Origin: Terriglobia bacterium
GTDB lineage: Bacteria > Acidobacteriota > Terriglobia > Terriglobales > Acidobacteriaceae
Assembly (NCBI GenBank): GCA_020072845.1
Contig: JAIQGF010000001.1
Coordinates: 62,001 to 126,000 of the forward strand
Reading direction: 5' to 3'
DNA length: 64,000 nt
Shown piece after piece: positions 37,807 to 56,502 of this stretch. Made by a program: the position numbers and the translations under genes. Below the pieces are notes generated by a model, which made no database searches, was not told the DNA's origin, and was given only the letters and a program-made list of their open reading frames with translations. Position 1 is the stretch's first letter. Each line of letters opens with the position of its first letter.

Positions 37807-38514
37807 CTATCTCACGCTCAGCAGCTCCGCCTTGCGCTGGCGGTGGTAATCGTTCAACTTCGCATTGGCATCGAGGATAGTGTCCAGCTCGGCGGCGATC
37901 TTCTCGATGTCGGCGCCCGGAACCATGATGTAGAGCTCGTCATCGGCAAGATCGGTATAGACGCGATTCCCCACGCACCCACTGGAGGCGGTCGTGCCGC
38001 CCGCAAGCGCCGCCGGAATCGCCATGCACGTCGGACGCGCGAACAGCGACGGCTGAGTTTGCACGCCGGCCCGCGCCGCCGCTTCCTGCAGCAGCATCAG
38101 TTTCCCCGGCTTACCGACCAGGATCACCACCTCCGGCGTAAACGATGCGTCGGCCAGCGGCGCATACGCCATGGTCCCTGGCGAGTTCGTCAGGCGCGCG
38201 ATGCCGGGAATGTCTTCCGGCCGGATGTACCCAATCGAGGTCATGAAGGCGATGGTCGCGCCCAGTTCCGCCTCGCGCTCCGGCGGCAGAGGGATGTTGT
38301 GCGTGTAGCAACCGATGGCGCAGTTGTAGTGGTCGCCGGCTTCGGTGTAGAACGAGCGGCCTTCGGCGGCCAGGCGCCAGAAGCTGCAGCCCGCGGGCAC
38401 GCTGCCGGAAAATTTCGGGATTCCCGGCTGCGGCGACGTGCTGACCGCCACCGGCCGGCGGGTCAGGCCCAGAACTTCGGTCAATTGCGATTCGAGAGAG
38501 GAATTGCGCGTCAT
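37807..38514 (-). CDS. DUF169 family protein
   Basis: 235 residues matching DUF169 (COG2043): LTRRPVAVSTSPQPG at the start, CSFWRLAAEGRSFYTEAGDHYNCAIGCYTHNI (conserved cysteines), the SIGYIRPEDIPGIARL block and ARPTCMAIPAALAGG near the middle. Family function is not established; conserved Cys residues suggest a bound cofactor or metal. It is divergent from the FAA-family gene, so may share its control region. Confidence 0.8.
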   Translation of the reverse strand: MTRNSSLESQLTEVLGLTRRPVAVSTSPQPGIPKFSGSVPAGCSFWRLAAEGRSFYTEAGDHYNCAIGCYTHNIPLPPEREAELGATIAFMTSIGYIRPEDIPGIARLTNSPGTMAYAPLADASFTPEVVILVGKPGKLMLLQEAAARAGVQTQPSLFARPTCMAIPAALAGGTTASSGCVGNRVYTDLADDELYIMVPGADIEKIAAELDTILDANAKLNDYHRQRKAELLSVR

Positions 38515-38614
38515 AAGCTCAAACTAGATGTGCGGCGTGCCGCAGCGGATGCAACAAAACGCGGGTTGGACAAGCCCTCCCGCTTCACATACACTGCCGC
38601 ACCAGAACGGCTCT

Positions 38615-39616
38615 ATGCGTCTTGTCACCTTTGAAAATCCCTTGCAGATGCGCCGCGCGGGAGCTATCGCCAGCGATGGCATCGTAGATCTTAACCTCGC
38701 CTGCGCCGCCCAACATTCCTCGCAAGGCGCCGCCGCCTACCGAATCGCCGACGCGCTGGTGCCTTCCGATCTCCGCTTGCTGTTCGAGGGCGGCGACGCG
38801 AGCCTGGACGCCGCGCGCGAGGCAATGGCATACGCGATGGCGGAGGGAGCCGCGCTGCGCGGACCGTCGGGCGAACCGGTCGTATTTCGTCGTGACCAGG
38901 TGAAGCTGAAGGCGCCCATCATCCCGCGCAAGTTCTTCCACACCGCCGGCAACTTCCGCGAGCATCACGAGGAAGCCACCAAAGCCGGATTTTCGCACCC
39001 GGTGCTGCCCTGGATCGTTTTCTTTCAGAACATTGACGCCATCATCGGGCCCGATGAGCCGGTGGTGTATCCGTCGCACCTGACGCGAGAACTCGATTAC
39101 GAGCTTGAACTGGCGGTAGTCACCAAAAAAGCAGGCAAGCACTTCACCGCCGAGCAGGCCGGCGATTACATCGGCGGCTACGTCATCTTCAACGACATCA
39201 CCGCGCGCGACATCCAGCGGACGGAGATGAAGTCGGGCGTGTTCAGCTTCTGCAAGGGCATTGACACGTTCTGCCCGCTGGGACCGTGGATCGTGACCGC
39301 CGATGAGATCCCTGACCCGCACAACCTCGCGATGGAGCTGCGCGTCAACGGCCAGCCGCGCCAGAAATCGCATTCCAGCAAGATGTCGGTAAAGATTCCG
39401 GAGATCCTGGCGCATTATTCCCCCATGGGCTACAGCGCCGGCGACGTGATTTCGACGGGAACAGTGTCGGGCGTGGCGGCATTTTCCGGCGATCCCAAGG
39501 CCTGGTACCTGAAGCCCGGCGACGTCATGGAATGTGAGATCGAGCGGATCGGAGTGCTGCGCAATCCGGTGATCGCGTGGGAACAGGCGCACGGAAAGAC
39601 AGAGGCCAGTAGCTAG
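38615..39616 (+). CDS. Fumarylacetoacetate hydrolase family protein
   Basis: 333 residues. An N-terminal beta domain (MRLVTFENPLQMRRAGAI) is followed by the FAH catalytic domain: KFFHTAGNFREHHEEA, YPSHLTRELDYELELAVV (metal-binding Glu residues), VIFNDITARDIQ (Asp) and ISTGTVSGVAAF. Family members hydrolyse or decarboxylate C-C bonds of diketo acids in aromatic and heterocycle breakdown. The start at 38615 is the ATG before the conserved domain. It lies 140 bases before the homocitrate-synthase-like gene on the same strand. Confidence 0.87.
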   Translation: MRLVTFENPLQMRRAGAIASDGIVDLNLACAAQHSSQGAAAYRIADALVPSDLRLLFEGGDASLDAAREAMAYAMAEGAALRGPSGEPVVFRRDQVKLKAPIIPRKFFHTAGNFREHHEEATKAGFSHPVLPWIVFFQNIDAIIGPDEPVVYPSHLTRELDYELELAVVTKKAGKHFTAEQAGDYIGGYVIFNDITARDIQRTEMKSGVFSFCKGIDTFCPLGPWIVTADEIPDPHNLAMELRVNGQPRQKSHSSKMSVKIPEILAHYSPMGYSAGDVISTGTVSGVAAFSGDPKAWYLKPGDVMECEIERIGVLRNPVIAWEQAHGKTEASS

Positions 39617-39745
39617 TGGCTAGTGGCTGGAAGCTATCGCATAAATGATTTTGGGTAGGGCACGGCGGAACCTGTCCTGAGCGGAGTCGAAGGAGCCGTG
39701 CCGCCAAGAGCCGCCAAAAATGCGGGCTTTAGCCCCTGAGGAAAA
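39605..39745. repeat. Compound repeat block in the gap before the homocitrate-synthase-like gene
   Basis: Three parts: AGTAGCTAGTGGCTAGTGGC phrase (39609-39628); inverted pair GGCACGGC (39658-39665) and GCCGTGCC (39692-39699) around CCTGTCCTGAGCGGAGTCGA; and hairpin GGGCTTTAGCCC (39723-39734). Confidence 0.65.
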
Positions 39746-39756
39746 ACATAGCAGCG

Positions 39757-40953
39757 ATGAACAACAACAAAGTCTGGGTCAGTGAGCTGAATGAGCACGG
39801 CCGGTTCCAGGTCGCCGAGCCGATTCGTTTCTACGACACCACGCTGCGCGACGGCGAGCAGACGGTCGGCGTGGTGCTCAGCCCCGAGCAGAAGCTGGAG
39901 ATCGCGCGCAAGCTGGACGTGCTCGGCATCTCGCGCATCGAAGCCGGCTTTCCGCGCGTCAGCCCGGAAGACGCGGAGGCGATCCGGCTGATCTTGCGCG
40001 CCGGGCTGAAAGCAGAGATCTGGGGATTTTCGCGCGCCCAGAAGGCCGACATCGAGGCGCTGGTAGCACTCGGTGTCAAAGCTACTGTCATTGAGGTACC
40101 GACCAGCGACATCAAGCTGAAGGCGTACGGCCTGACGCGCGAGGAATCGCAGAAGCGTTTGGTCAACGCCGTCTTGCTGGCGCAGCAGAATGGCATTCGC
40201 GTCGCGTTCTTTCCCGTGGACTGCACGCGTACCAACTTGGAATTTCTCCAGCAGATCTACCTCGCTGCCCTGGAAGCGGGCGCGGCGGAGCTGGTGGTGG
40301 TGGATACGATCGGCGTCTGCGGGCCGGAAGCGGTGGACTTCCTGGTCGCCGAGGTAAAGCGCTGGGTCGGCGACAGCGTGCCCATCCACTGGCACGGGCA
40401 CAACGATTTCGGGTTCGGAACGGCGTGCTCGGTGGCGGCGGTGCGCGCCGGCGCCACCTGGGTGCAGGGCACCATCAACGGCATGGGCGAGCGCGCCGGG
40501 AATTGCGACCTCGGCGAAACCGCCCTGGCGTTGAGCTGCCTGTATGGCGTCCCGGTTGAGATCAACCTGGCCAAGCTGCGCGAAACTTCCGAGACCGTGC
40601 AGCGGCTTTCGGGATACCAGATGGAACCATGGAAACCGGCGGTCGGAAATAATCTCTTCAATCGCGAGAGTGGCGCGGTGGCCACCCAGTTTCACATTCC
40701 CGAAGCCATCGAGCCCTACGCTGCCGACCTGGTGGGCGCGACGCGCAGCATCGTGCTTGGCAAGAAGAGCGGCCTGGATTCCATCGATTTGAAATGCCGC
40801 GAATTGAAACTGGAGATCGCGCCGGAACAGCGCGCCGCCTTGCTCGCGGAAGTGAAAAAGATGTCCATTGCCAAGCGCGGCCTGGTCACCGACGACGAAT
40901 TCCGCGCCATCTATCGTGAAGTGCTGCAGAAGAAAGAAACTGTTGGCCACTAG
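39757..40953 (+). CDS. Homocitrate synthase / isopropylmalate synthase family enzyme
   Basis: 398 residues of the DRE-TIM metallolyase family. Signatures: YDTTLRDGEQTVGVVLS, EAGFPRVSPED, HWHGHNDFGFGTA (metal-binding HxH) and GTINGMGERAGNCDL. It lacks the C-terminal regulatory domain of LeuA. It condenses an acyl-CoA, usually acetyl-CoA, with a 2-oxo acid. No leu or nif genes are near, so the 2-oxo acid may be an intermediate of the catabolic cluster. Confidence 0.85.
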   Translation: MNNNKVWVSELNEHGRFQVAEPIRFYDTTLRDGEQTVGVVLSPEQKLEIARKLDVLGISRIEAGFPRVSPEDAEAIRLILRAGLKAEIWGFSRAQKADIEALVALGVKATVIEVPTSDIKLKAYGLTREESQKRLVNAVLLAQQNGIRVAFFPVDCTRTNLEFLQQIYLAALEAGAAELVVVDTIGVCGPEAVDFLVAEVKRWVGDSVPIHWHGHNDFGFGTACSVAAVRAGATWVQGTINGMGERAGNCDLGETALALSCLYGVPVEINLAKLRETSETVQRLSGYQMEPWKPAVGNNLFNRESGAVATQFHIPEAIEPYAADLVGATRSIVLGKKSGLDSIDLKCRELKLEIAPEQRAALLAEVKKMSIAKRGLVTDDEFRAIYREVLQKKETVGH

Positions 40954-40959
40954 CGATAG

Positions 40960-41052: not shown

Positions 41053-42141
41053 CTACTTTCCAGTTGCACGCTGATGTTCCTTGAAATGCGGCAGCACGGC
41101 TTCGCCGAACAGCTTGACCTGCTGCTCCCGGTCCTCGCCCCAGACTTCCAGCATGATGTGGGAGCAGCCCGCGTCGCGGTACTCCTGGATGCGCGCGATG
41201 CACTCCTCGGGCGTGCCGGCGATCGGCTTCACCTTCTCGAACACTTCATCGGACACCGCGCGCGCCGCGGCTTTGCGCCCGCCCTGCTCCATGGCATCCG
41301 CGATCGGGCGAATGTCGTCGAAGGTGAGTCCCGCCGATTGCAGCAGCACGTCGGCCGAGCCCTTGATGTTCTGCACCTTGTTGGCGAGATACATGGCCGC
41401 CATTTCGCGGGCGCCTTCACGGCCGCGGCGCGAATCGCGCCCGATGCTTCCGACAATCACCGACCCGAGATCGAGTTGCGCCGGATCGCGGCCTGCCTGG
41501 CGCGCGCCCTCTTCCATGTTGTGCCGCGAGTAGCGCACGAATTCCGGCGTGGTGATGCTGGCCGTCAACAGGCCATCCGTGTGGCTGCCCGCCATGCGTT
41601 GCAGCACCGGACCTGTGCCCGCAAAGTACATCGGGGTGCGTACGCGCGAAACGTGCGCGTCAGGTTTGAGCGGCGGGACCTCGGCGGAGAACACTTTGCC
41701 GTCGTAACCAAACGCGCCGCCGTCGAGCGTGCCGCGAATGATCTCCAGGCTTTCGCGCATCACGGTCGCCGGACCGGCGCCGGGTTTGCCTTCGCCTTCG
41801 CCGATTTCCTTCATGAAGATCTTTGAGGCGCCCAGGCCGAGCAAAAAGCGCTCGCCGCAGAGGTCCTGCATGACGCGCGCTTCCATGGCGATCTGCACCG
41901 GATGGCGGGTGTACGGCGAGATGATTCCCCACCCGATGTTGATCCGCTTGGTTTCGTGCGCGACCAGCGCGGTGATCGCGGTGGAAGAGCGCGCTTCGTA
42001 GGCATGCTTGCGCCACCAAGGGTAGGCCTCGGCAAGCCAGAAGGTGTCGAAACCGGCTTGTTCGCAGGCGTGCGCCATGCGCACCGTCTCGCGCGCGGGT
42101 TCCATGCTGAGCTGCAAGACGCCGATACGGAATGGAATCAC
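41053..42141 (-). CDS. LLM class flavin-dependent oxidoreductase (luciferase-like)
   Basis: 362 residues with the bacterial-luciferase/F420 TIM barrel: ACEQAGFDTFWLAEAY, INIGWGIISPYTRHPVQIAMEARVMQDL, FLLGLGASKIFM and the late GTPEECIARIQEYRDAGCSHIML, which is typical of methylene-H4MPT reductase-like LLM enzymes. It would use FMNH2 or F420H2 for an oxidation or reduction. It is the last gene of the minus-strand catabolic series. Confidence 0.87.
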   Translation of the reverse strand: MIPFRIGVLQLSMEPARETVRMAHACEQAGFDTFWLAEAYPWWRKHAYEARSSTAITALVAHETKRINIGWGIISPYTRHPVQIAMEARVMQDLCGERFLLGLGASKIFMKEIGEGEGKPGAGPATVMRESLEIIRGTLDGGAFGYDGKVFSAEVPPLKPDAHVSRVRTPMYFAGTGPVLQRMAGSHTDGLLTASITTPEFVRYSRHNMEEGARQAGRDPAQLDLGSVIVGSIGRDSRRGREGAREMAAMYLANKVQNIKGSADVLLQSAGLTFDDIRPIADAMEQGGRKAAARAVSDEVFEKVKPIAGTPEECIARIQEYRDAGCSHIMLEVWGEDREQQVKLFGEAVLPHFKEHQRATGK

Positions 42142-42143: not shown

Positions 42144-42216
42144 TGTCTCTCGGTCTCTCGGTCGGTCGGTCTATCGGTCTCTCAATGACTGATAGACCGA
42201 TAGACTGAAAGACCTT
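42144..42216. repeat. Inverted short-period repeat, word TCGGTCTC/TCGGTCTA
   Basis: Left arm TGTCTCTCGGTCTCTCGGTC and onward (42145-42185); right arm (42191-42216) GATAGACCGATAGACTGAAA. The two can pair. A very similar word fills the next gap upstream at 43136. Confidence 0.75.
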
Positions 42217-43135
42217 AAGGATTGATCCAAGAATGCTCTAAACCCCTAATCAACTGCCACACGGCGCGGTTCAGCGGCGTCGGCACGCCGGTCTTCTCGC
42301 CCCAGCGCACGATGGCGCCGTTCATGAAATCCACTTCGGTGGGACGCTTGGCCAGAATATCCTGCAGCATGCTCGCCTTGTGCATGCCCGGTGCGTTCGC
42401 CGCTTTCTTCACCAGCGCCTTGGGATCGCCGTCGAGGGTGATGCCGAGCGCCTTCGCTACCGCGATACCTTCGTCAATGAGCGCGTCAAACAGTTCGCCG
42501 GTGGGCGGGAAAAACACCGCCGCACCGTGGTGCAACTGTGTTAATGCGCCGACCGCGTTCGTGCCCGCGTTGAAGATCAGCTTGGCCCACTGTGCGCCGC
42601 GCGCGTCGGCCATGGCGATGGTATTCATCCCGGCGCGCGTGATCAGCCCGGCAAGCTCTTCAACTTTCTGCATCGGCGTGGAGGTCGGCTCAAAAGGACC
42701 GATCCAGGTGTCGCCGCGGATGTCGAAGCCGACGTGGCCGGGTTCGATCACGTGTCCGGCAGGAAACGTGGTGCCGCGGATGACGTAGTGCACGTGCTCG
42801 GCGACGATCTCTTCGTTTCCCACGCCGTTCTGCACCGAGCACACGGCGCTCCGCTCGTCGAAGATGCGTGCCGCTGCGGCGATGGCGGGACGCGTGTGCG
42901 TGCTCTTGGTGGCGACGATGCCGAAATCGCAGCGCGGAATTTCGGCGGCATCGGTCGAGGCTTGCAGGCGCGCGGTGAAGTCGGCCTCGCCGGAGATGCG
43001 CAGGCCGCGCTGCTGGATGGCGCAGACGTGGTCGCGGGAAACGTCGAAGGCGAAAACCTCAGCCTCGCCGGCACGCGCCAGGTGGGCGGCGAACAGGCTG
43101 CCGATGGCGCCGCAACCGATGATGCAAATTCTCAT
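42215..43135 (-). CDS. 2-dehydropantoate 2-reductase family protein (first copy)
   Basis: 306 residues of the ApbA/PanE family: NADP motif IIGCGAIGSLFAAHLA, IVATKSTHTRPAI, the active-site lysine region QWAKLIFNAGTNAVGALT and C-terminal helical domain. A paralog with similar motifs lies at 46875-47825 in the same cluster. Location with catabolic genes points to reduction or oxidation of a 2-oxo or 3-hydroxy acid other than ketopantoate. Confidence 0.85.
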   Translation of the reverse strand: MRICIIGCGAIGSLFAAHLARAGEAEVFAFDVSRDHVCAIQQRGLRISGEADFTARLQASTDAAEIPRCDFGIVATKSTHTRPAIAAAARIFDERSAVCSVQNGVGNEEIVAEHVHYVIRGTTFPAGHVIEPGHVGFDIRGDTWIGPFEPTSTPMQKVEELAGLITRAGMNTIAMADARGAQWAKLIFNAGTNAVGALTQLHHGAAVFFPPTGELFDALIDEGIAVAKALGITLDGDPKALVKKAANAPGMHKASMLQDILAKRPTEVDFMNGAIVRWGEKTGVPTPLNRAVWQLIRGLEHSWINP

Positions 43136-43250
43136 GGTCTCTCGATCTTTCGGTCACTCGGTCTGTCGGTCTTTCGGTCTTTCGGTCTGTCGGTCTACCG
43201 GCGGTCATGCGCAGGCTGAGAGACCGATGGACCGATGGACTGAGAGACCC
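43136..43250. repeat. Long inverted short-period repeat, word TCGGTCTTTCGGTCTG
   Basis: The left arm (43136-43200) has about eight 8-base units of the TCGGTCTK type; the right arm (43216-43250) has GAGAGACCGATGGACCGATG and onward. The right arm is part of the M24 coding sequence and encodes its last residues. Confidence 0.75.
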
Positions 43251-44403
43251 GGATCTCTTCTCCGCCCTGATAAAACTTCCACTCCACGTCGGCGAGGTTT
43301 TCGCCTTCACTCTTGCCGACGCGGAATGTGTCTTGGGTGTAAAGGCAAACTTGGCCGTCACGGTCGATGACCTGCGGGTGCAGCGAGAAAATCATGCCCT
43401 CGCGCAACTCGACCTCGCTGCGCGCGCCAATCGCGGGATGCTCCAGCATGGTCAGCCCGATTGAGTGACCCGAGAGATGGCCGAGGCTGAAGCCGTGGGC
43501 GGCGAAGGTTTCGGCAACCACGCGATGTACGTTGCTGGCCCGCTCCCCTTCGCGCAGGACGCGGCGCGCGGCCTCCATCGCTTCGGGATAGGCAGCAGCC
43601 ATCTGCTGGATGCGCGGGCTCGGCTTGCCGCGAATGAGGGCGCGCGAGAATTCCACCCAGTAACCCTCGTACCCGCCGATTTCCAGCGAGTAAAGCATCA
43701 GGTCGCCGGGCTCGACGACACGGTCGCCGGGAACTTTGAAGTGCGCTTCGGCCTCGCCGTGCGGGCCGGAAAGCACGATGTTCATCATGCGCGGCCCGGC
43801 GCCGCCGGCGAAGAAGCGTTCGACGGCAGGCGCCATGATCTCGGCCTCGGTCTTGCCGGGTTCAAAGTTGCGCACCAGCGCGTCGAAGCCGTGGAGAATG
43901 ACTTCCATGCTCTGCCCGATGTGCGCCAGTTCCCAGTCGCTCTTGACGGCGCGCACCATGTCGAACGGGAAATCCCATGTGACCATTTCGCACGCGGATT
44001 GGGCGAGCTCGCGGTAGTCGCGCACCGCCATGACAAAATCCATGCCGACAACGCCCAGGCGCTTCCAGCCGTGCTCGCGTGCGCGGTCGCGTAACCAGCG
44101 GCCGGGAACTTCAGGCCAGACCTGCTCGCGCACCCAGGGTTTCTTTTTGTCGCCGATCCAGCGCGCCTCGGCGGGAAACACCAGCGTGGGCTCACCCGCG
44201 AGCGGCAGCAGGACGTAGGCGTAGCGATGCACGATCTCGAAGCCGGAGACATAGCGAACCGCGCCTTCGAAGCCCGCGTACTGGTTCCCGCATACCAGCA
44301 GCGCGTCCAGATGGTCGCGCTCCATGGCGGCGCGCAGCGCGGCATGGCGGCGCTCGATTTCTGCCGGCGTGATCGGCGGGCCGTTCTGGCAACGCGGGGT
44401 CAT
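43195..44403 (-). CDS. Creatinase-like M24 family protein lacking canonical metal ligands
   Basis: 402 residues with the creatinase/prolidase two-domain fold. Where metal-dependent members have Asp, Asp, His, Glu, Glu, this protein shows Glu241/Glu251 (SLEIGGYEGYWVEFSRA), His313 (SGHSIG), His342 (SLHPQV) and Gln357-Asp358. Creatinase and ectoine hydrolase-type enzymes also work without the metal pair, so an amidine or amide hydrolase is likely. The last about 15 residues (VSQSIGPSVSQP) are repeat-encoded. The ATG overlaps the M20 stop (ATGA). Confidence 0.82.
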   Translation of the reverse strand: MTPRCQNGPPITPAEIERRHAALRAAMERDHLDALLVCGNQYAGFEGAVRYVSGFEIVHRYAYVLLPLAGEPTLVFPAEARWIGDKKKPWVREQVWPEVPGRWLRDRAREHGWKRLGVVGMDFVMAVRDYRELAQSACEMVTWDFPFDMVRAVKSDWELAHIGQSMEVILHGFDALVRNFEPGKTEAEIMAPAVERFFAGGAGPRMMNIVLSGPHGEAEAHFKVPGDRVVEPGDLMLYSLEIGGYEGYWVEFSRALIRGKPSPRIQQMAAAYPEAMEAARRVLREGERASNVHRVVAETFAAHGFSLGHLSGHSIGLTMLEHPAIGARSEVELREGMIFSLHPQVIDRDGQVCLYTQDTFRVGKSEGENLADVEWKFYQGGEEIRVSQSIGPSVSQPAHDRR

Positions 44404-45674
44404 GCGGTCCGCCCGCCACACAGCTCGGCGGCGGTCAGGGCGTAGATGCGCGTGATGTCCACGAACGTCCGGATCGCGACCTTTTCTCCTTCGGCGTCGC
44501 GCGGACCGCTGGACGGCCCGTAATTGACGGTGGGAATGCCGTAGCGCGAGAGCACAGAGGCGTCTGAGCACCAGGTGACCACGTCACGCCGCGGAGTGTC
44601 GCCGGTCACACGCCGGTGGTTGGCCTCGATGGCGCGCACCATCTCGTGATCGCCGCTGATGGTGGCGCCCGGAACCGAGACGTAGGTTTCAAATTCCAGG
44701 CCGAAGTTCGCGTTCTGCCGGCGGAGCTTGAGGAAGAGCTGCTGGATCTCGCGGCGCGCCTCGGCCATTTCCATCGCTGGAGGAACGCGCAGGTCGAGAA
44801 AAAGGTCGGTGCGCTCGGGTGTGCGGCTGGCGCGCCACGGGTGGCCGCCGCGGATTCCGCCGACATTCACGATTCCCTTGTGCCCGCCGTGCGCCGCCAT
44901 CGTCTGCCAGCGCGGCATCCATTCGCGCACGGCTTCCAGCACGCCGGCCATGCGCAAAATGCAATTCTCATCTTCCTTGCCTTCGGCGAACGCCGTGTGG
45001 ACGTAGTTGCCGGCGACGGAAATGCGCGCCCACAGCGACCCGAAGTGCTCGAGCACGACGGCCATGTCGGTGGGCTCGCCGAGAATGCACATGTCGGGTA
45101 CGACGCCATGGGTGACAAGATGGTGTGAGCCGACGCCGTAACCGCGGTATTCCTTGCCGTTAAATTCGCCCCACTGTGCCTTCTCGATTTCGCCGACGAC
45201 CGCGGCCAGGATAACGTCGCCCTCAACCGCGACTCCGGCACGCTGCAACGCCCGCACCGCCTGCGTATAGCAGACGAGCGCGCCTTTCATGTTATAGATG
45301 CCGAGGCCGTAGATCATTCCGTTCTTGACCACGGCGCTGGGCTTGTAACCGATGCCGGCGAGAAACGGCTCCCGCCCGGTGTTGGAGGTGTCCATGTGGC
45401 CGTTGAACATCAGGTTGCGCCCAGCGCCGCGGCCTTCGTATCGTGCCACGATATTTGCCCGGCCCTCCTCCACCTCCTGGCGCACCACCCGCAGGCCCAT
45501 CTCTTCCCAGCGCCGTTGCAGGTAGTTGCCCATGGCGAGCTCGTCGCCGGTGGGGCTGGGAATGTTGATGACCTCGCAGGCCATGGAGACAATTTCGTCC
45601 TCGCGCACTTCGGCGACGATGCGCTCGGCGACATCGTGCGGCAGCTTCGAAGGTTCCACGCCGGGTTGAGTCAT
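44400..45674 (-). CDS. M20 (ArgE/DapE/acetylornithine deacetylase-like) family protein with altered metal site
   Basis: 424 residues with a two-domain M20 layout: NGHMDTSNTG (His93, Asp95), YGLGIYNMKGAL at 122-132, VVGEIEKAQ (Glu162, Glu164) and LGEPTDM (Glu200). The bridging Asp of the usual DMKG motif is Asn128, and the final His of the usual GPxxxxxHxxxE motif is missing (GPSSGPRDAEGE). Full dinuclear zinc binding is therefore doubtful. Members hydrolyse amide bonds of N-acyl or N-carbamoyl amino acids. It is coupled to both neighbouring M24 genes by 4-base overlaps. Confidence 0.82.
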   Translation of the reverse strand: MTQPGVEPSKLPHDVAERIVAEVREDEIVSMACEVINIPSPTGDELAMGNYLQRRWEEMGLRVVRQEVEEGRANIVARYEGRGAGRNLMFNGHMDTSNTGREPFLAGIGYKPSAVVKNGMIYGLGIYNMKGALVCYTQAVRALQRAGVAVEGDVILAAVVGEIEKAQWGEFNGKEYRGYGVGSHHLVTHGVVPDMCILGEPTDMAVVLEHFGSLWARISVAGNYVHTAFAEGKEDENCILRMAGVLEAVREWMPRWQTMAAHGGHKGIVNVGGIRGGHPWRASRTPERTDLFLDLRVPPAMEMAEARREIQQLFLKLRRQNANFGLEFETYVSVPGATISGDHEMVRAIEANHRRVTGDTPRRDVVTWCSDASVLSRYGIPTVNYGPSSGPRDAEGEKVAIRTFVDITRIYALTAAELCGGRTA

Positions 45675-47837: not shown

Positions 47838-50339
47838 CTACATCAGGTCCTGGCCTCCCTCCCATTTGGTTTCCGTGCCGGCGCTGGAATGCTGGATGCG
47901 AACGCCGCGTGCGTGCGCGCCCGATTGCGCCGACTGGATGGCGGCAAACAAGCTGTCGGCAGTGTTGTGCGAATCGCTGACAAACACCTTCAGGGGATAC
48001 ACCGCGTCCTGGATGGCGGCGCACATGGTGTGCAGCGGCGCGGCCCCGCCTTCGCCCATTCCTTTGGCGCCGTTGAAGGTAAACGGCGAGGGCGTTTCGA
48101 TGTGGCCGTAGCGCAGGCGCGGCATGTTGAGGGCGGTGATGGGCGTGTAGTCGCTGAAAGTGCTGGTGAGCAGGTTTCCGGCGGGATCGTAGGCGCAGGT
48201 CTCCATGATGGCGGCGCCGATGCCGTGCGCGGTGCAGCCGTGCACCTGGCCTTCGACGATGCGCGGGTTGACGGCGCGCCCGCAATCGTCCACGCAGGCA
48301 TAGGCGAGGATGCGCGGGACGAAGGTGTCGCGCTCCACCTCGACCACCGCGATGTGCAATTGTGCGGCATAGGTCAGCGTCAGGTTGCCGTATTTCCTCC
48401 CGAGGTCGGGAAGCTTGAATGGCGGACGATACACGTAACGGCAGTTGAGCGTGACGTCGAGATCCTCCGGCAGCCCGGCGTTGTTGACGTTCACAATGTT
48501 GGCGAGGCCGCCATACGGAATCGCCTTATCGGAGCCCTTGACGCGAACCTCGGGACCATCCTTGCCCACACCGAATTCCAGATCGTCAATGCTCGCGTCG
48601 AGCACGAAGGCGGCAAGCTGCGCGAGTTCTTTTTTCAGCTTCACCGCGGCGCCGTAAATCGCCGACAGGCCGGTGACCGCGAATTGGCTGGCGTAGGTGC
48701 CGGTGTGGCCGGTATGGACGTTGAAATCGGTGTCGAAGCCGGGGCGAACGTGCACCGTCTCGGGCAGGATATTGAGGACGTCGGCGACCACTTGCGAAGC
48801 AGTGGTCTCGTGTCCCTGGCCCTGGGGCACGGAGCCAAGCAAGACGACGACCTCGCCGTAGATGTCGATTTTCACCATCGCTGCCTTCGAATTCCCGGAG
48901 AACGGCGCGAGCGGGTTGATGATGCGCGCCTGGCCGAAATTGTTGGTGCCGGAATCGAGCGTGGTGCCGATGCCGATGCCGACCGCGCGCCCTTGCTGGC
49001 GCATCTCGGGAATTTTCTTCTGCCAGTCGTCCCAGCCGATCAGCTCCTGCGCTTTTTTCAGCATCGCCGGATAATTGCCGGAGTCGTACACGCAGCCGTT
49101 GGGCGTGGTGTACGGCATCTCAGTCGGCTGAATGTAATTGCGCAGGCGCATCTCGACGGGGTCGATGCCGAGTTCACGCGCGCAAGTGTCGAGCACGCGC
49201 TCCAGGAACCAGAGGTGCTGCATGCGCGAGTAGCCGCGGTTGGGGCCGACCGGACACTTGTTGGTCGCCACCTGCTTGAAATCAATGCGCAGGTTGCGGA
49301 AGCGATACGCGCCCGGCAGCACCTGCGCCCAGATGATGCAGCCCAGCGGCTCGTAGCGCGGGTAGGCGCCGCAATCGTCGATGTGCCGCGATTCGATGGC
49401 GGTGATCACGCCGTTCTTGTCGAGCGCGACGCGCGTGTTCAGGAAGGTGCGCTCGTTGCCGTGAGCGCTGGCCATCAGGTGCTCGGTGCGGGTTTCGCTC
49501 CATTTGACGGGACGGCCGCCGGCCTTGCGCGAAGCCAGCGCGCACAGCGCCATGTACGGATAATTCGTGATCTTGATTCCGAAGCTGCCGCCGATGTCGT
49601 AGCTCTGTGTCCGGATGGCGTCAATGTGCACTCCGAGGTGCGGCGCCAGGAACTGGATGGCGAATGCGGGAAAGCTGTTGTTGCTCCAGTATTGGATGGT
49701 GTTGTCGTCCGCATCCCATTGCCCGATGACGGCGTTGTTCTCCAGCGGCGTCGAAGAGAAACGGTGGAAGTGCATCCGGTCGATCGTGACGACGGACGCC
49801 GCCTCGGCGAACGCCTTGTCCACTTCGCCGTACTCGAATTGTCCCTGCCAGACCAGATTCGTGCCGGCTTCGTCGTGGAGGATGCTGCGGTCGGCGAGCG
49901 CTGCATCGCAGGTGACCACCGGCTCGAGCGCTTCGTAGTCCACCTGCACCAGTTCGGCGGCATCTTCGGCAGTGAGGCGGGAATCGGCGATCACGGCGGC
50001 AACCGGCTCGCCCTGGAAACGAACTTTCGAAACCGCCAGCGGATAGTCCTGGATTTTTGCGCCAGCGCCCGAAGCGATCTCGGGGAAGGGCTGCGTAAGT
50101 TTCGCGACCTCGGCGCCGGTCAGCGTGCAAACCACTCCGGGGTGAGCTTCGGCGGCGCTGACGTCCACGTTGTTGAGGCGCGCGTGTGCGTACGGCGAGC
50201 GCACCAGGCGCATGTAGAGCATGCCCTCGAGCTTGTAATCGTCAATGAACTTGCCCTTGCCGCGGACCAGGCGGTCTTCTTCCTTGCGGCGCAGCGGCTG
50301 GCCGGTCCATGTCGTCTTGACGTCGTCCTTGGTCGCCAT
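47838..50339 (-). CDS. Molybdenum hydroxylase large (molybdopterin-binding) subunit, CoxL/XdhB-like
   Basis: 833 residues of the xanthine oxidase family large subunit: RRKEEDRLVRGKGKFIDD start, GGSFGIKI, the loop CPVGPNRGYSRMQ where CO dehydrogenases have AYRCSFR or AYRGAGR, GSVPQGQGHETTASQVVADVL and the catalytic Glu in GAKGMGEGGAAP. The loop rules against CO oxidation; hydroxylation of an N-heterocycle or aldehyde fits better. Together with the FeS and FAD subunits and CoxG it forms a complete enzyme. Confidence 0.9.
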   Translation of the reverse strand: MATKDDVKTTWTGQPLRRKEEDRLVRGKGKFIDDYKLEGMLYMRLVRSPYAHARLNNVDVSAAEAHPGVVCTLTGAEVAKLTQPFPEIASGAGAKIQDYPLAVSKVRFQGEPVAAVIADSRLTAEDAAELVQVDYEALEPVVTCDAALADRSILHDEAGTNLVWQGQFEYGEVDKAFAEAASVVTIDRMHFHRFSSTPLENNAVIGQWDADDNTIQYWSNNSFPAFAIQFLAPHLGVHIDAIRTQSYDIGGSFGIKITNYPYMALCALASRKAGGRPVKWSETRTEHLMASAHGNERTFLNTRVALDKNGVITAIESRHIDDCGAYPRYEPLGCIIWAQVLPGAYRFRNLRIDFKQVATNKCPVGPNRGYSRMQHLWFLERVLDTCARELGIDPVEMRLRNYIQPTEMPYTTPNGCVYDSGNYPAMLKKAQELIGWDDWQKKIPEMRQQGRAVGIGIGTTLDSGTNNFGQARIINPLAPFSGNSKAAMVKIDIYGEVVVLLGSVPQGQGHETTASQVVADVLNILPETVHVRPGFDTDFNVHTGHTGTYASQFAVTGLSAIYGAAVKLKKELAQLAAFVLDASIDDLEFGVGKDGPEVRVKGSDKAIPYGGLANIVNVNNAGLPEDLDVTLNCRYVYRPPFKLPDLGRKYGNLTLTYAAQLHIAVVEVERDTFVPRILAYACVDDCGRAVNPRIVEGQVHGCTAHGIGAAIMETCAYDPAGNLLTSTFSDYTPITALNMPRLRYGHIETPSPFTFNGAKGMGEGGAAPLHTMCAAIQDAVYPLKVFVSDSHNTADSLFAAIQSAQSGAHARGVRIQHSSAGTETKWEGGQDLM

Positions 50340-50390
50340 AGCTGTTTCGGTCTATCGGTCGTCGATCCGAGTAGAACTCCGCTGAGTATT

Positions 50391-50494
50391 CACCACCGAG
50401 GCACCGAGGTCACCGAGGTACACCGAGCTTATCCGTTCCTGTTGTCGCATCTGGTTGTTCGGTGGTCCCCTGTGTTCTTGGTGTCTCGGTGGTG
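50391..50494. repeat. Inverted CACCACCGAGGCACCGAG repeat (copy 1)
   Basis: Left arm CACCACCGAGGCACCGAGGT and onward to 50427; right arm (50471-50494) ending GGTGTCTCGGTGGTG. A second copy is at 60352-60435. The right arm overlaps the 3' end of the CoxG-like gene. Confidence 0.75.
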
Positions 50495-50946
50495 CGATTC
50501 CTCTCCCCATTCATCGCCTGCTGCAGGCTCGCGACCACTTTCTGAATATTCTTGCGCGCCAGCGGCTCCAGCAGCCCGCCGGCGATGGATGTCAGACGGC
50601 CGAACACCTGCGCCTCGCCTTTCCAACTCACCACCGTGCCGACGCCGTCAGGACGCAGATCGAAACGTGCATTCAGGTCCACGTTCCCTCCCGCCATGGT
50701 GGCCTTGCCGGTGTAAAGGGCGTGGGAAGGACGAGTGTGCTCGGCCAGATGCAGCTTCACCGTGGCCGTACCGCGGATGTGCGAGATGCCGACCTTCACA
50801 TCCACCATGAAATTCTCCGCGTCGCGCACGTCCACTTTCTGGTAGTCGGGCAGCAGCGGGCAGAACCGGTTCGGGTCGGTAAGGAAATCGTAGGTCTCCT
50901 CGGGCGTGCGCTGCACCGTGAATTCGCCGCCAAAGCTAAAGGCCAT
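50410..50946 (-). CDS. CoxG/SRPBCC family protein
   Basis: 178 residues from an ATG preceded by GAGGAGGGGGA. The SRPBCC fold of CoxG is evident: FTVQRTPEETYDFLTDPNRF, CPLLPDYQKVDV, GISHIRGTATVKLHL and VSWKGEAQVFGRLTSIAGGLLEPLARKN. CoxG-type proteins help mature or anchor molybdenum hydroxylases. The C-terminal about 25 residues (TTETPRTQGTTEQ region) are encoded by the inverted repeat and are not conserved family sequence. Confidence 0.83.
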   Translation of the reverse strand: MAFSFGGEFTVQRTPEETYDFLTDPNRFCPLLPDYQKVDVRDAENFMVDVKVGISHIRGTATVKLHLAEHTRPSHALYTGKATMAGGNVDLNARFDLRPDGVGTVVSWKGEAQVFGRLTSIAGGLLEPLARKNIQKVVASLQQAMNGERNRTTETPRTQGTTEQPDATTGTDKLGVPR

Positions 50947-51030
50947 TCCCCCTCCTCGTCGCCGCGATAGGTCGTGCATCGTCGACGCGATTGACAGACT
51001 GCCTACGTATCGTGCTTCGCCTTGTATCCG

Positions 51031-51117
51031 GGCACGACTTTAGTCGTGCCGAACCCGCGCATTTTCTCTCTTGTCATTCCGAGCGGGGTTTCAACCCCGC
51101 GAGGAATCTGCTGTTCC
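51031..51117. repeat. Two stacked hairpin repeats between coxS- and coxG-like genes
   Basis: First GGCACGAC-TTTA-GTCGTGCC (51031-51050). Then the TGTCATTCCGAGCG family copy (51072-51117) with insert hairpin GCGGGGTT-TC-AACCCCGC (51083-51100) and ending CGAGGAATCTGCTGTTC. The second supplies the stop codon of the FeS-subunit gene. Confidence 0.7.
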
Positions 51118-51597
51118 CGCCGCCGCCCGGATTGCCTTCAAGATGTTCTGGTACCCGGTACAGCGGCACGTGTTCCCTGCGATTCCCTTGAGAATTTCCT
51201 CGTCGGAGGGCCGTGGATGCGACGCCAGCAGTTCGGTGGCGGCCAGCAGGAAGCCCGGCGTGCAGTAACCGCATTGCAAGCCATGGTTGCCGGCAAACGC
51301 TTCTTGCAATGGATTGAGATTGCCGCCCGCCGCCAGCCCTTCGACGGTCGTGATTTCGGCGCCATCAGCCTGCACGGCAAACACCGTGCACGACTTCACC
51401 GCTTTGCCGTCCAGAAGCACGGTACAGGCGCCGCAATAGCTGGTGTCGCATCCGATGTGCGTGCCGGTAAGGTCGAGCGTCTCGCGCAAGAAATCCACGA
51501 GCAGCGTGCGCCCCTCGATCCTCTCGGTGTACGACTTCCCGTTCACCTTGAGCGTGATTGCCACGCGGTCCGTCGGTTTCGAGATCACGTCAGGCAT
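51091..51597 (-). CDS. Molybdenum hydroxylase small [2Fe-2S] subunit
   Basis: 168 residues with both clusters: plant-ferredoxin type C-x4-C-x2-C ([22 protein letters not shown]) and the second C-x2-C...C-x-C ([20 protein letters not shown]). It transfers electrons from the Mo site to FAD. Its start overlaps the FAD-subunit stop by 8 bases. The last residues (GTADSSRG) come from the dispersed repeat. Confidence 0.92.
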
Positions 51598-52486
51598 AGA
51601 TGTGGCCGCCTTGCACGGCCCCGCCCTGGCTGCGGCGCAGCGCAGCCTCCAGGGCGCGCCGGGTGAGCGAACCTACCAGGGTGCGCTTGTAACCCACCGA
51701 GCCGCGCATGTCGGGTTGGGGATCGGCGGCAGCCATGGCGGCCTCGGCGGCGCGCGCGATGGTCTGCGAGTTCAGCTCCTTGCCGGCGAGCTCGTCTTCA
51801 GCGGTGCGGGCGCGGATTGCGGTGAGCCCGACGCAGCCGAGCACGATGTGCGCCTCGCGGCAGGTGGCGCGGTCGTTCATGGTCAATTGCGTGGCGACGC
51901 TGGCGGTGGCATACACGGGAGCGCAGCGCTTGAAGGCAACGTAGGCTCCGCCGGCGGCGCCTTGCGGAACGTGCACCAGGATTTCGCGCACCACCTCGCC
52001 GGGCGCGAGCGCGGTGGTGTAGGCGTCAAGAAAAAAATCGGAAATCGAAATGCTCCGTTCGCCTGCCGGGCCAACGCAGCGCACCTCGGCGGGAAGCGCC
52101 AGCAGCGCGGCGCCCCAATCGCCGCTGGGATCGGCCTCGGCGAGCGATCCGCCGATGGTGCCGCGGTTCCGCACCTGCACGTCGGCAATGCCAGCGGCGC
52201 AATCGTGCAGCAGCGGGATGGCGCGCACGGCGGCGGAGGCGGCAAGGTCAGCGTGCCTCGCCATCGCGCCCAGGCGCAGGTCGCCATTGGCGCGGTGGAT
52301 GTACGAAACGCCGGGAACGAAGTTCAGGTCCACCAGGTGCGAAGGCGAGGACAGCCGCAGCTTCATCAGCGGAATCAGGCTCTGGCCGCCGGCGAGCAGC
52401 TTGGCGTCCTCGCCCAGTTCGGCAATCATGGACGCGGCTTCCTCAAGCGAAGCGGCGCGATGGTAACGGAAGGCGTGCGGATACAT
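51590..52486 (-). CDS. Molybdenum hydroxylase FAD-binding subunit
   Basis: 298 residues of the CoxM family: FAD-binding [25 protein letters not shown], then [23 protein letters not shown] and the C-terminal CO_deh_flav_C domain ([26 protein letters not shown]). It is the first gene of the minus-strand molybdenum hydroxylase series (order FAD, FeS, CoxG, Mo). 93 bases separate it from the permease stop upstream. Confidence 0.92.
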
Positions 52487-52579: not shown

Positions 52580-54088
52580 TCACGGAGCCGGCTGTGTGGC
52601 ACGGGTCTCTGACCCGTGGCCTCCCGGGTCGTAGACCCGGGCCACACGGCTCGCGCGTCGCCACAGGACGTAACACAGCGAAATAAACGCCAGCCATGGA
52701 ATGCCCGCGAGCAGCGTCACGCGCATTCCCTCCACCCACCACGTGGTCAGCAGGATGGCGATGATCGAGGCCGCTCCCAGCAGCGTGGTAAACGGATATC
52801 CCGGCATGCGCACCGGTAGCGGCGGCGCGCCACTCTGTTCCCAGCGGCGGCGAAAGGGCAGGTGAGTCAGGAAAATCATCAGCCAGATGAAAAGCCCGCC
52901 GAACAGCGCGATCCCGAACATGTAGACATACGCCGTGCGCGGGTACAATGCGGCCATCACGGTAGCCAGCGCCAGTCCGAAGGTGGACATGAGCAGGGCG
53001 TTGACCGGCGTGCCCTGGCGCGAGACCTTTCCAAACACGCCGGGCGCATAGCCGCCGCGCGCGAGCGAAAACATCATGCGCGTGACCAGGTAGAAGTTGC
53101 AATTGATGCTGGAGAGTGCGGCGGTGAGCACGACAAAGTTAACCACGTGCGCTGCGGCTGGGATCCCCATGACTTGAAAAACGGTGACAAACGGGCTGGC
53201 GGTGACGTCGGCGCCCGGCTGAATGCGGTCCCAGGGCACCACGCCGATGAGGACAATCATCGCTCCGATGTAGAAGAGGATGAGCCGGCCGACCATGGAA
53301 CGCATGGCGCGGGGCACGGCACGCTCCGGGTCCTTGGCTTCTCCGGCGGTCACCGCGACAATCTCGGCGCCAATGTAACCGTAGATGACAAACACGATCG
53401 CCATCCACATTCCGGACAAGCCGCGCGGGAAAAATCCGCCGTGCGCGGTGAAATTGCGCGCGCCAATTGCCGGGTGACCGGCGCCCAGCGGCATGGCCGC
53501 CCCAAACACGATGAAGAGAACAATCGCGACCACCTTGATCATCGCAAACCAGTACTCAAACGTGCCGAAGCTGCCCACGCTGCGGGCGTTCACCCACAGC
53601 AGCCCCGCCGAAAATCCGACGATCCACAGCCACGAGGGCACGTTGGGGAACCACCAGCGGCAGTACACCGCGACTGCGGTGGCTTCGCCTCCGATGGCAA
53701 TCGCCTGTACCGCCCAGTAGGTGTAACGAACCACGAAGCCGGCCCAGCGGCCGAGATAAATTTCGGCATGAACGCCGAACGACCCGGCGGTGGGATGCGC
53801 CACCGACATTTCCGAGAGCGCGCCCATCAGCAGCAACGTGATCGCCGCGCCGAGCACGAAGGTGAGGATCACGGCCGGCCCGGCGGCGCGCACGGCCAGC
53901 GAACTGCCGAGGAACAATCCGGTGCCGATGGCGCCGCCAATCGCGATCATCGCCAACTGCCGCGACGACAGCTGGCGATGCAGGCCGGCTTCCTTGTCCA
54001 CCACCACAGACGAAATGTCGGCGAGCGAGCGGCTTTCGGCCTTCAAAGAGTTCCCCACGGGTGCCGAGAGTATATCCCGCAGGCCCAC
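52580..54088 (-). CDS. APC family amino acid permease
   Basis: 502 residues with twelve hydrophobic segments. The amino-acid permease signature starts at LSSRQLAMIAIGGAIGTGLFLGS; other family blocks are EMSVAHPTAGSFGVHAEIYLG and GYIGAEIVAVTAGEAKDPERAVPRA. It would import an amino acid or related N-compound by proton symport. The last about 18 residues (VYDPGGHGSETRATQ) derive from the palindromic repeat. It sits directly upstream of the Mo-hydroxylase genes and may import their substrate. Confidence 0.88.
   Translation of the reverse strand: MGLRDILSAPVGNSLKAESRSLADISSVVVDKEAGLHRQLSSRQLAMIAIGGAIGTGLFLGSSLAVRAAGPAVILTFVLGAAITLLLMGALSEMSVAHPTAGSFGVHAEIYLGRWAGFVVRYTYWAVQAIAIGGEATAVAVYCRWWFPNVPSWLWIVGFSAGLLWVNARSVGSFGTFEYWFAMIKVVAIVLFIVFGAAMPLGAGHPAIGARNFTAHGGFFPRGLSGMWMAIVFVIYGYIGAEIVAVTAGEAKDPERAVPRAMRSMVGRLILFYIGAMIVLIGVVPWDRIQPGADVTASPFVTVFQVMGIPAAAHVVNFVVLTAALSSINCNFYLVTRMMFSLARGGYAPGVFGKVSRQGTPVNALLMSTFGLALATVMAALYPRTAYVYMFGIALFGGLFIWLMIFLTHLPFRRRWEQSGAPPLPVRMPGYPFTTLLGAASIIAILLTTWWVEGMRVTLLAGIPWLAFISLCYVLWRRASRVARVYDPGGHGSETRATQPAP
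52594..52647. repeat. 54-nt three-stem palindromic element (second copy)
   Basis: Closing stem GTGTGGC (52594-52600) with GCCACAC (52641-52647); inner hairpins ACGGGT-CTCTG-ACCCGT and CCCGGGTC-GTA-GACCCGGG. Same orientation and same GSETRATQ-coding frame as the copy at 6791-6842; here it forms the C-terminus of the permease. Confidence 0.85.
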
Positions 54089-54096
54089 TAACGATG

Positions 54097-54134
54097 GTGC
54101 CCCACATCTGCCCGCCTTTGGCAGACGTGGGTGA
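54097..54134. repeat. Palindromic repeat CCCACATCTGCC/GGCAGACGTGGG
   Basis: Arms 54101-54112 and 54120-54131 around a CGCCTTT-like loop. It shares the GGTGCCCCA start, CTTT loop and GTGGGTG end with the copy in argD. It lies just upstream of the permease gene. The rest of the gap (54135-54308) shows no gene. Confidence 0.65.
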
Positions 54135-54308
54135 CTGTAGGGATTTGCCCTGGCTGCGACGGGAGCCTTCGCATGGCGGGAGGATCACTTCCAAGCGTGA
54201 TGTGCATCACGCCCCACTGTAATCGACTCCCTATCCGGCGCGCCGCCATACATCAGAGACTGTTCGCGGGGCGACCGCCCACCATTGGGTCTGCCCCGGT
54301 ATAGCACC

Positions 54309-55178: not shown

Positions 55179-55185
55179 TCTTCAG

Positions 55186-56502
55186 TTACCTCGCTGCTGC
55201 GGTCGCCGGCTGCGCGGCGGTCACCGCCGCAAATGCCTGGTCGAGCATGCGGATGGCTTCATCCACGTCCGCCTTGCTGATATTCAGCGGCGGCGACATG
55301 CGAATGGCGTTGCCGTAGAGCCCGCCCTTGCCGATGATCAATCCCGCGCGGCGCGCCTCGTCGAGCACGCGGTTGGTTTCCTGCGGCGCCGGTTCCTTGG
55401 TGTTGCGGTCTTTGACCAGTTCGAGCGCCTGCATCAGGCCCATGCCGCGCACGTCGCCGATCAGGTCGTACTTGTCTTTCAGTCCTTCCAGTCCTTCGCG
55501 AAAATGTTGGCCGACGGTGTGCGCGTTGTCCATCAGCCTGTCTTCTTCGATCAGGTCAATCACCGCCTTGGCCGCGACCGAGGTCACGGGATTGCCGCCG
55601 AAGGTCGAGATTTGCAGGCCCTTGAAGCTGTTGGCGATCTCCGGGCGCGTCATGGTGACACCCACCGGCACGCCGTTACCCAGACCCTTGGCGGAAGTCA
55701 TGATGTCGGGTGTGACCTCCCAGTGCTCGATGCCGAACCATTTCTTTCCGGTGCGGCCCCAGGCGGTCTGCACTTCGTCGCTGATGAAGTCGCCGCCATA
55801 CTTCTTGACGATCTTGAACACGATCTTGAAGTACTCCGGCGGCGGCGTGATAAATCCGCCCAGCCCCTGGATGGGTTCGGCCAGCATGCCGGCAATCGCG
55901 CCCGAAGTCGAGGTCTGGATCACGCTCTCCACATCTTCGGCGCACTTCACGCCGCAGTCCGGATACTTCAGTCCGAAGGGACAGCGGTAGCAGTACGGAT
56001 TCATGGCGTGCACCACGCCGAAGGCAGCCGGCAATGACGCGCGCCAGCTATGCATGCCGGTCATGGACTGCGCCGCCTGCGACCGGCCGCTGTATCCGTG
56101 GCGCAAAGCCACAATCTCGAAATGCCCGGTGTGCATGCGGGCGAACTGGACGGCGGTCTCGTTCGCCTCCGTGCCGCTGTTGGTGAAATACGTTTTGCTG
56201 ATCTCGCCGGGCGCAATCTTTGCCAGCTTCTCCGCCAGCGCGACAATGGCTTCATTGGGCAGCACCGTCGAAGCGTGCTGGATTTTGTCAATCTGCGCCT
56301 TGATCTTGGTGGTGACGCGCGGGTTCGAGTGCCCCACCGAGATGGTCACGATGCCGCCGAAGAAATCCAGGTACTTCTTGCCTTCGGTGTCCCACAGGTA
56401 CTGCATGCTGGCGTGCTCGGTCACCAGCGGGTCGGTGAAGTAGGTGGTAACGGAGGGGAACAGGTACTGCTTGTATTTGGCGATGATTTCGTCGCGAGTC
56501 AT
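55186..56502 (-). CDS. Class III aminotransferase (PLP-dependent, AGXT2-like)
   Basis: 438 residues from the ATG at 56502. PLP-enzyme landmarks: YFTNSGTEANETAVQFARMHTG, SDEVQTAWGRTGKKWFG and the Schiff-base lysine in MTSAKGLGNGVPVG. The insert with NPYCYRCPFGLKYPDCGVKCAEDV is typical of alanine-glyoxylate aminotransferase 2-like and omega-amino acid aminotransferases. Substrate probably an omega-amino acid; it could serve the catabolic cluster. Confidence 0.87.
   Translation of the reverse strand: MTRDEIIAKYKQYLFPSVTTYFTDPLVTEHASMQYLWDTEGKKYLDFFGGIVTISVGHSNPRVTTKIKAQIDKIQHASTVLPNEAIVALAEKLAKIAPGEISKTYFTNSGTEANETAVQFARMHTGHFEIVALRHGYSGRSQAAQSMTGMHSWRASLPAAFGVVHAMNPYCYRCPFGLKYPDCGVKCAEDVESVIQTSTSGAIAGMLAEPIQGLGGFITPPPEYFKIVFKIVKKYGGDFISDEVQTAWGRTGKKWFGIEHWEVTPDIMTSAKGLGNGVPVGVTMTRPEIANSFKGLQISTFGGNPVTSVAAKAVIDLIEEDRLMDNAHTVGQHFREGLEGLKDKYDLIGDVRGMGLMQALELVKDRNTKEPAPQETNRVLDEARRAGLIIGKGGLYGNAIRMSPPLNISKADVDEAIRMLDQAFAAVTAAQPATAAAR

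Follow-up and report, generated by a model that had tools for sequence, protein, structure and literature searches.

A Twelve-Gene Set Co-inherited in Acidobacteriota and Actinomycetota and Its Possible Role in the Breakdown of a Nitrogen-Containing Ring Compound

Between positions 37807 and 56502 of the 64,000-nucleotide window analyzed here (Terriglobia bacterium, assembly GCA_020072845.1, contig JAIQGF010000001.1), genes for a molybdenum (Mo) hydroxylase, for hydrolases of the M24 and M20 families, for ketopantoate-reductase-like (KPR) dehydrogenases, and for an LLM oxidoreductase follow each other closely, which raises the question of whether they belong together and, if so, what they do. 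An earlier note, made from the letters of the DNA, had seen in them a probable uncharacterized catabolic cluster for a cyclic nitrogen compound. We found that twelve gene families of this locus are inherited as a unit in two phyla, where they have been lost and rearranged jointly, and we favor, with middling confidence, the view that the twelve genes encode a single, so far undescribed pathway that imports and catabolizes an electron-poor ring compound containing nitrogen.

Gene content of the locus

The Pfam scan of 28 window proteins recovered all the genes and families named in the earlier note, each where it had been placed. A ten-gene run on the minus strand, from 52486 to 41053, comprises the FAD, FeS, CoxG, Mo large subunit (MoL), KPR1, M24a, M20, M24b, KPR2, and LLM genes, and the FAH and DRE-TIM genes, on the plus strand, converge on it from the left. 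The description of most junctions as overlapping or shorter than 15 bases holds for five of the nine in the run, the remaining four measuring 59 to 111 bases.

38615 to 39616, plus strand: FAH-family C-C hydrolase/decarboxylase (Pfam FAA_hydrolase, 2.4e-66; nearest solved structures 6iym, 8sky, and 8gsr)
39757 to 40953, plus strand: DRE-TIM condensing enzyme, homocitrate/isopropylmalate-synthase-like, short form (Pfam HMGL-like, 2.3e-68; nearest solved structures 6ktq and 3rmj)
41053 to 42141, minus strand: LLM oxidoreductase, Mer-like, probably F420-dependent (Pfam Bac_luciferase; best NCBIfam model TIGR03555 F420_mer, below its cutoff)
42215 to 43135, minus strand: KPR2, ketopantoate-reductase-like dehydrogenase (231 bits against a cutoff of 141 for TIGR00745, a subfamily model that does not fix the substrate)
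43195 to 44403, minus strand: M24b, creatinase/prolidase fold with an altered active site (E251, H313, H342, and Q357 in alignment numbering; Pfam, residue conservation, AlphaFold model, Foldseek)
44400 to 45674, minus strand: M20, 5-nitroanthranilate-aminohydrolase-like hydrolase (N128, E162, I163, E200, and R284; profile search against PDB, conservation, tree, AlphaFold model, Foldseek)
45671 to 46867, minus strand: M24a, creatinase/prolidase-like, with a full but D-to-E ligand set (Pfam; ligand residues)
46875 to 47825, minus strand: KPR1, ketopantoate-reductase-like dehydrogenase (199 bits against the same TIGR00745 cutoff of 141; 47% identical to KPR2)
47838 to 50339, minus strand: Mo hydroxylase large subunit (Pfam; nearest solved structure quinoline 2-oxidoreductase 1t3q; signature PNRGYSRMQH)
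50410 to 50979, minus strand: CoxG-like protein (Pfam COXG, 8.1e-24)
51091 to 51597, minus strand: Mo hydroxylase [2Fe-2S] subunit (Pfam Fer2_2, 5.7e-30)
51590 to 52486, minus strand: Mo hydroxylase FAD subunit (Pfam FAD_binding_5, 1.5e-47)

The FAH start at 38615 was set from the conserved MRLVTF, and the M24a start is most likely 46867 (MPYPID).

Conservation in Acidobacteriota

The family-level M20 search covered 41 genomes, and close orthologs (66 to 91% identity) are present in the window's genome and in eight others of the same family. All twelve genes occur in five of these eight loci. Locus L014 stops in DRE-TIM at a contig edge, no FAH or DRE-TIM lies near L020, and L018 begins inside the Mo gene, again at a contig edge, and does not have KPR1 and M24a between the Mo subunit and M20, both being located on another contig of the same genome (G006). 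In L019, FAH and DRE-TIM are found inside the ten-gene run, on the same strand.

A scan of a one-genome-per-species collection returned 181 M20 relatives, the best 80 of which (63 from Acidobacteriota and 17 from Actinomycetota) were kept. Many of these 80 loci end at contig edges, which affects the count of each gene: M20 was found in 80, M24a in 72, LLM in 66, MoL in 65 (one being a 31% paralog), KPR1 in 63, M24b in 61, KPR2 in 57, FeS in 52, FAD in 51, CoxG in 47, FAH in 44, and DRE-TIM in 41. Among the acidobacterial loci of at least 20 kb, 26 of 28 hold the ten-gene core, which indicates that the grouping is not due to chance, and 13 of 28 hold all twelve genes; gene order is mostly kept in the acidobacterial relatives. 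The set that had been proposed, converging FAH and DRE-TIM included, recurs in relatives within Acidobacteriota and, reordered, in Actinomycetota. Open reading frame (ORF) clustering of the relatives' loci was noisy, and clusters resembling shadow ORFs were not used. Upstream of FAD, several acidobacterial loci (L021:2-2777 and similar) carry a flavin reductase, a second LLM, and a membrane protein without a Pfam match.

The Actinomycetota version

The same set is ordered differently in Actinomycetota, and a Liv-type ABC importer lies within the operon or next to it. In particular, G619 and G555 present FAD-FeS-MoL, LLM-M20-FAH-M24a-DRE-TIM, and KPR1-LivKGFH-KPR2-M24b as a single run that spans about 20 kb. 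G755 shares this gene content, but its KPR1 follows the importer and its FAD is located at or past the end of the stretch; in G562 the importer lies beyond M24b. Beside the actinobacterial cluster recur a second LLM, a flavin reductase, an amine-oxidase-like flavoprotein, a xylose-isomerase-like protein, and a GntR/FCD regulator; the second LLM and the flavin reductase are common to some actinobacterial and several acidobacterial loci. The association of the set with a Liv-type importer points to catabolism. The one structural relative of the Liv binding protein, a branched-chain amino acid binding protein, is a weak match (4e-13), so that no ligand was assigned.

It seems improbable to us that the unit makes a cofactor or a specialized metabolite, with DRE-TIM and KPR building a branched acid and the Mo hydroxylase, LLM, and M20 acting as tailoring enzymes. 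In favor of such a role, condensing enzymes of the DRE-TIM type usually work in anabolism, as do ketopantoate reductases. F420-dependent LLM enzymes serve biosynthesis too, according to a review (PMC8498797). The importer and the GntR/FCD regulator inside or beside the actinobacterial operons argue against it, as do the FAH- and M20-type hydrolases of the set; furthermore, no nonribosomal peptide synthetase, polyketide synthase, or exporter is present among the genes identified.

Joint inheritance and joint loss

FAH/DRE-TIM, KPR1-KPR2-M24b, or KPR1-M24a are detached from the other cluster genes in some genomes, as would be the case if independent modules stood side by side by chance, but the separated parts still co-occur. 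M24b was detected in 16 of the 17 actinobacterial M20 genomes, including those with the parts on different contigs. In even samples of 396 genomes per phylum, M24b was found in five genomes of each phylum and M20 in all ten of these; three of the ten (G000, G013, and G430) were known before for M20 and seven were tested, two of which (G184 and G208) are the genomes of loci L073 and L076, already known for M20. With none of ten genomes matched by M24b devoid of M20, and eleven of the twelve genes lost together at one locus (see below), a chance assembly is nearly refuted and hardly credible. Moreover, where cluster genomes have no FAH/DRE-TIM nearby, FAH occurs elsewhere in 12 of 12 and DRE-TIM in 10 of 12, compared to none of four for either gene in genomes without the cluster. 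Wherever both of these unlinked genes were found, they adjoin each other, and in at least two genomes they seem to share a contig with the cluster. In the plasmid collection, all matches to M24b (97 records) and to M20 (429 records) were below 60% identity, so that it contained no close relative of either.

The limits of the unit emerge from the same-genus genome G001, which keeps the ADH, DUF169, APC, USP, and aminotransferase genes in order and, at this locus, is without eleven of the twelve cluster genes, KPR1 alone being intact. The stretch of G001 homologous to the window ends about 50 bases into FAH and starts again about 20 bases into the beginning of FAD, a deletion scar at the two ends of the twelve-gene set. 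The search of G001 was genome-wide for M20, FAH, DRE-TIM, and the KPR family, and the other losses refer to the locus. Three of the genes kept in G001 lie as follows in the window.

37807 to 38514, minus strand: DUF169 gene, at the start of the span, not named in the earlier note
52580 to 54088, minus strand: APC permease (neighbor)
55186 to 56544, minus strand: class III aminotransferase (neighbor)

Since the cluster-less G001 retains the APC permease and the aminotransferase, we consider both as neighbors and not, as had been supposed, as members. Neither occurs in the eight family loci, and the APC permease, aminotransferase, USP, DUF169, and ADH genes are all absent from the loci of the best 80 of 181 relatives, in two sets that share five records and in which many loci reach about 3 kb past FAD or end at a contig edge.

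A KPR1-like gene, judged by score, is kept beside the aminotransferase in G002; its presence there and that of KPR1 in G001 suggest that KPR1 may have a use outside the pathway. In G012, G013, G014, and G017, the KPR1 and KPR2 of the cluster are the only ketopantoate-reductase-family matches at E values up to 1e-20, and thus they might also serve pantothenate synthesis.

Kinship of M20 to 5-nitroanthranilate aminohydrolase

In the search of the M20 family profile against PDB, 5-nitroanthranilate aminohydrolase (5NAA-A) was retrieved at 3.5e-53, and the next solved structure, a DapE, at 6.5e-26. M20 and 5NAA-A have in common an Asn in place of the Asp that we take to be the metal-bridging residue of canonical M20 enzymes, GEI in place of GEE, and one insertion. 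N128, E162, I163, and E200 occur in 91 of 91 alignment rows, 84 of which are distinct (duplicate pairs L014/L034, L016/L045, L017/L079, L018/L051, L020/L055, L085/L131, and L088/L132). The tree separates 5NAA-A and the cluster M20 from the other M20 enzymes with a support of 99/96, several branches being long; a second tree was built without L010, a wrong-frame row. Furthermore, the first 12 Foldseek matches of the AlphaFold model (predicted local distance difference test [pLDDT], 91.6) are all 5NAA-A chains (E values of 3e-36 to 5e-35), the next one following at 4e-29. R289 of 5NAA-A, the mutant of which was solved with a tetrahedral intermediate according to the title of entry 5k8p, aligns with R284 of M20, present in 16 of 16 aligned cluster rows and invariant in 31 rows.

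Sequence, fold, and the residue changes common to both therefore mark M20 as kin to 5NAA-A, an aromatic deaminase. This grouping with an aromatic aminohydrolase, and the fact that both have lost the usual second metal site, make the amide hydrolysis attributed to M20 at first doubtful. 5NAA-A itself is described in PMC11903332 as presumably using a path of the nucleophilic aromatic substitution (SNAr) type, in a passage that mentions metal-hydroxide intermediates.

The one find from the plasmid collection was pPHS1_P of Paraburkholderia graminis (L138:8228-11801), which carries in a row an LLM, a cysteine hydrolase, a 5NAA-A-like M20 annotated as hypothetical, and a flavin reductase, possibly a second, simpler pathway of the 5NAA-A-like M20 branch.

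Active sites of the Mo hydroxylase and the M24 proteins

The Mo large subunit has the general catalytic Glu (GxGE motif), and the loop PNRGYSRMQH or a near variant is found in nearly all large-subunit rows that hold the region. The active-site loop of CO dehydrogenase is AYRCSFR. Aerobic CO dehydrogenase was considered and rejected, since this loop is absent and the scores with the large-subunit models are 506 against 950 and 422 against 991 bits.

The classical metal ligands of M24 enzymes are D, D, H, E, and E. In M24a, whose nearest solved structures are prolidases and which matches ectoine hydrolase over its full length, the corresponding places hold E, D, H, E, and E in 80 of 80 rows, a ligand set with which metal binding is possible. 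In M24b they hold S/G, E, H, H, and Q, so that four of the five classical ligands are replaced; E251 is present in all 81 rows, H342 and Q357 in every row with a residue there, and H313 likewise in all but one. The E, H, and H could form a single-metal site, or none; creatinase and EutD have the M24 fold without a metal. The AlphaFold model of M24b (pLDDT, 91.1) resembles prolidases, creatinase, EutD, and DddP equally in Foldseek. Against the models of the ectoine hydrolases DoeA/EutD, the M24 proteins reach at most 71 bits, compared to cutoffs of 575 to 613.

LLM and cofactor F420

The nearest solved structure to LLM is the F420-dependent Mer 1ezw (3e-35), and its score of 143 bits against a cutoff of 349 for TIGR03555 F420_mer marks it as Mer-like and not as Mer; LLM is probably F420-dependent. 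The F420 gene test was conducted on 22 of the 25 family genomes, three of 76 to 84% completeness being left out. Both cofG and cofD exceeded their cutoffs in 14 of the 22, namely, in 9 of 9 genomes with the cluster and in 5 of 13 without, and the cluster hosts of the window's family thus appear, by gene evidence, to make F420. In G006 (L168:1-4557, contig C172), KPR1 and M24a adjoin cofD-cofG, at a distance of no more than 3 kb, and in G017 cofG-cofD is located on the cluster's contig. According to a 2021 review (PMC8498797), the role of F420 in bacterial species outside Actinobacteria had been the subject of no experimental studies.

Proposed pathway and its alternatives

The unit, the kinships, and the F420 association described above are observations, from which we infer the following reactions. 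The Liv-type transporter would import the compound, and the Mo hydroxylase would add a hydroxyl next to a ring nitrogen. M20 would exchange a ring amino group, or a similar leaving group, for water, using one metal in an addition-elimination on the ring, and hydride transfer between F420 and the ring would fall to the Mer-like LLM. Hydrolysis of C-N bonds by M24a and M24b would open the ring; the two KPR enzymes would interconvert hydroxy and oxo acids, FAH would cleave or decarboxylate a dioxo acid, and the DRE-TIM enzyme would join a 2-oxo acid to an acyl-CoA. A tentative sequence that suits this set of enzymes would be import, hydroxylation, reduction linked to F420, hydrolytic removal of a ring substituent, ring opening at a C-N bond, and final processing by KPR, FAH, and DRE-TIM.

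Known systems resemble this scheme in parts. The quinoline/quinaldine pathways have a three-subunit Mo hydroxylase, the cluster's being nearest to quinoline 2-oxidoreductase, whereas M20, M24, KPR, and LLM genes are, to our knowledge, not part of them. The degradation of 5-nitroanthranilate (NaaA/5NAA-A of Bradyrhizobium sp. JS329) features an M20 hydrolase with the same altered metal site and fold, whereas we know of no Mo, LLM, M24, KPR, or DRE-TIM genes in it. That pathway opens the ring with 5-nitrosalicylate dioxygenase, as stated in PMC10306065. This dioxygenase, a cupin, is absent from the 28 proteins scanned, and the 5-nitroanthranilate pathway as such was rejected. Picrate degradation has a gene set that differs from the cluster's, for which, moreover, a natural substrate is expected. 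It shares with the cluster an LLM-type enzyme, F420, and an electron-poor ring, through the F420H2-dependent LLHT hydride transferases of Rhodococcus and Nocardioides (PMC8498797). Ectoine degradation (doeABCD/eutDE), put forward as a partial analogy, agrees in the M24 fold of EutD/DoeA; it was rejected as the function, given the low M24 scores, an aminotransferase that lies outside the unit, and a DoeB that is a desuccinylase/aspartoacylase relative of the M14 family and not of the M20 type (PMC3187862).

Several points weigh against the ring-breakdown pathway. No ring-cleaving dioxygenase was detected among the 28 proteins scanned with Pfam. The margin of quinoline 2-oxidoreductase (3.8e-120) over CoxL (1.3e-117) is narrow for the Mo large subunit, and the best NCBIfam models for the three Mo subunits, all below cutoff, are CO or glyceraldehyde dehydrogenases, so that the substrate may be an aldehyde. 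The identity between M20 and 5NAA-A is only about 27%, and H226 is kept in 91 of 91 rows, as in most other M20 rows, whereas 5NAA-A has a Tyr; M20 is therefore a sister branch of 5NAA-A and not the same enzyme, and it could still be an amidase. The M20 of P. graminis groups with 5NAA-A yet is without a match to R289. The importer is known from Actinomycetota clusters and from none in Acidobacteriota, the actinobacterial CoxG matches are weak (20 to 25%), and DRE-TIM was found neither within 40 kb of the cluster in G562 nor anywhere in two of the 12 cluster genomes lacking it nearby. The chance of the cofG/cofD split is 0.004 if genomes are independent, which those of one family, uncorrected for kinship, are not.

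Some of these points would also fit a different function, which we consider a lesser but real possibility and which is nearest to the view of the earlier note: the unit would degrade a nitrogen compound that is either cyclic but not aromatic or N-acylated (lactam, betaine- or dipeptide-like). M24a, M24b, and M20 would then hydrolyze amides, amidines, or lactams, and the Mo enzyme would oxidize an aldehyde intermediate. The full ligand set of M24a and its alignment to ectoine hydrolase, the likeness of the M24b fold to creatinase and EutD, the NCBIfam scores of the Mo subunits, and the H226 of M20 are consistent with it, but the canonical second metal site is gone from M20 through the same changes as in 5NAA-A, and the ligand replacements in M24b speak against it as well. 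Of the original proposal, catabolism and action on a nitrogen-containing ring are both judged probable, whereas the permease and the aminotransferase drop out and amide hydrolysis by M20 is in doubt. The set also stands as uncharacterized, in that a literature search, with most subscription journals outside its reach, found no description of it.

Other features of the window

The promoter and terminator scan gave counts no higher than chance level. An 8-base unit (GACCGAGA-like) forms short tandem arrays in the cluster spacers at 42145-42208, 43136-43235, and 50347-50360, a 14-base repeat probe had 15 matches in the window compared to 0.65 expected, and further 7- to 8-base arrays are scattered across the window. 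The array at 43195-43240 enters M24b at its 3' end, where it seems to encode an extra repetitive tail, VSQSIGPSVSQ, that the eight aligned orthologs do not have. At 60957-62813, a long aldehyde dehydrogenase (618 amino acids) resembles acetylating acetaldehyde dehydrogenase, just under the cutoff of that model (590 against 620 bits).

Significance

It is possible to hypothesize, although we regard it as rather doubtful in this full form, that the cluster represents a new aerobic breakdown of N-heteroarenes without a ring-cleaving dioxygenase. Such a breakdown would combine Mo hydroxylation with the transfer of hydride from F420H2 to the ring; a natural sister of 5NAA-A would replace a ring amino group by means of a metal hydroxide, and the ring would be opened by an M24 enzyme in which conserved Glu, His, and His stand in for the dinuclear site. 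It would be widespread in uncultured soil Acidobacteriota and Thermoleophilia, with a role for F420 outside Actinomycetota. The kinship of M20 places 5-nitroanthranilate aminohydrolase in a wider family, and twelve linked enzymes are available to assay, the binding protein of the importer offering a direct route to the substrate. If the proposal is true, a whole pathway would be added to two phyla with many uncultured soil members, a natural soil substrate being likely, and F420 would have a concrete, testable job in Acidobacteriota.

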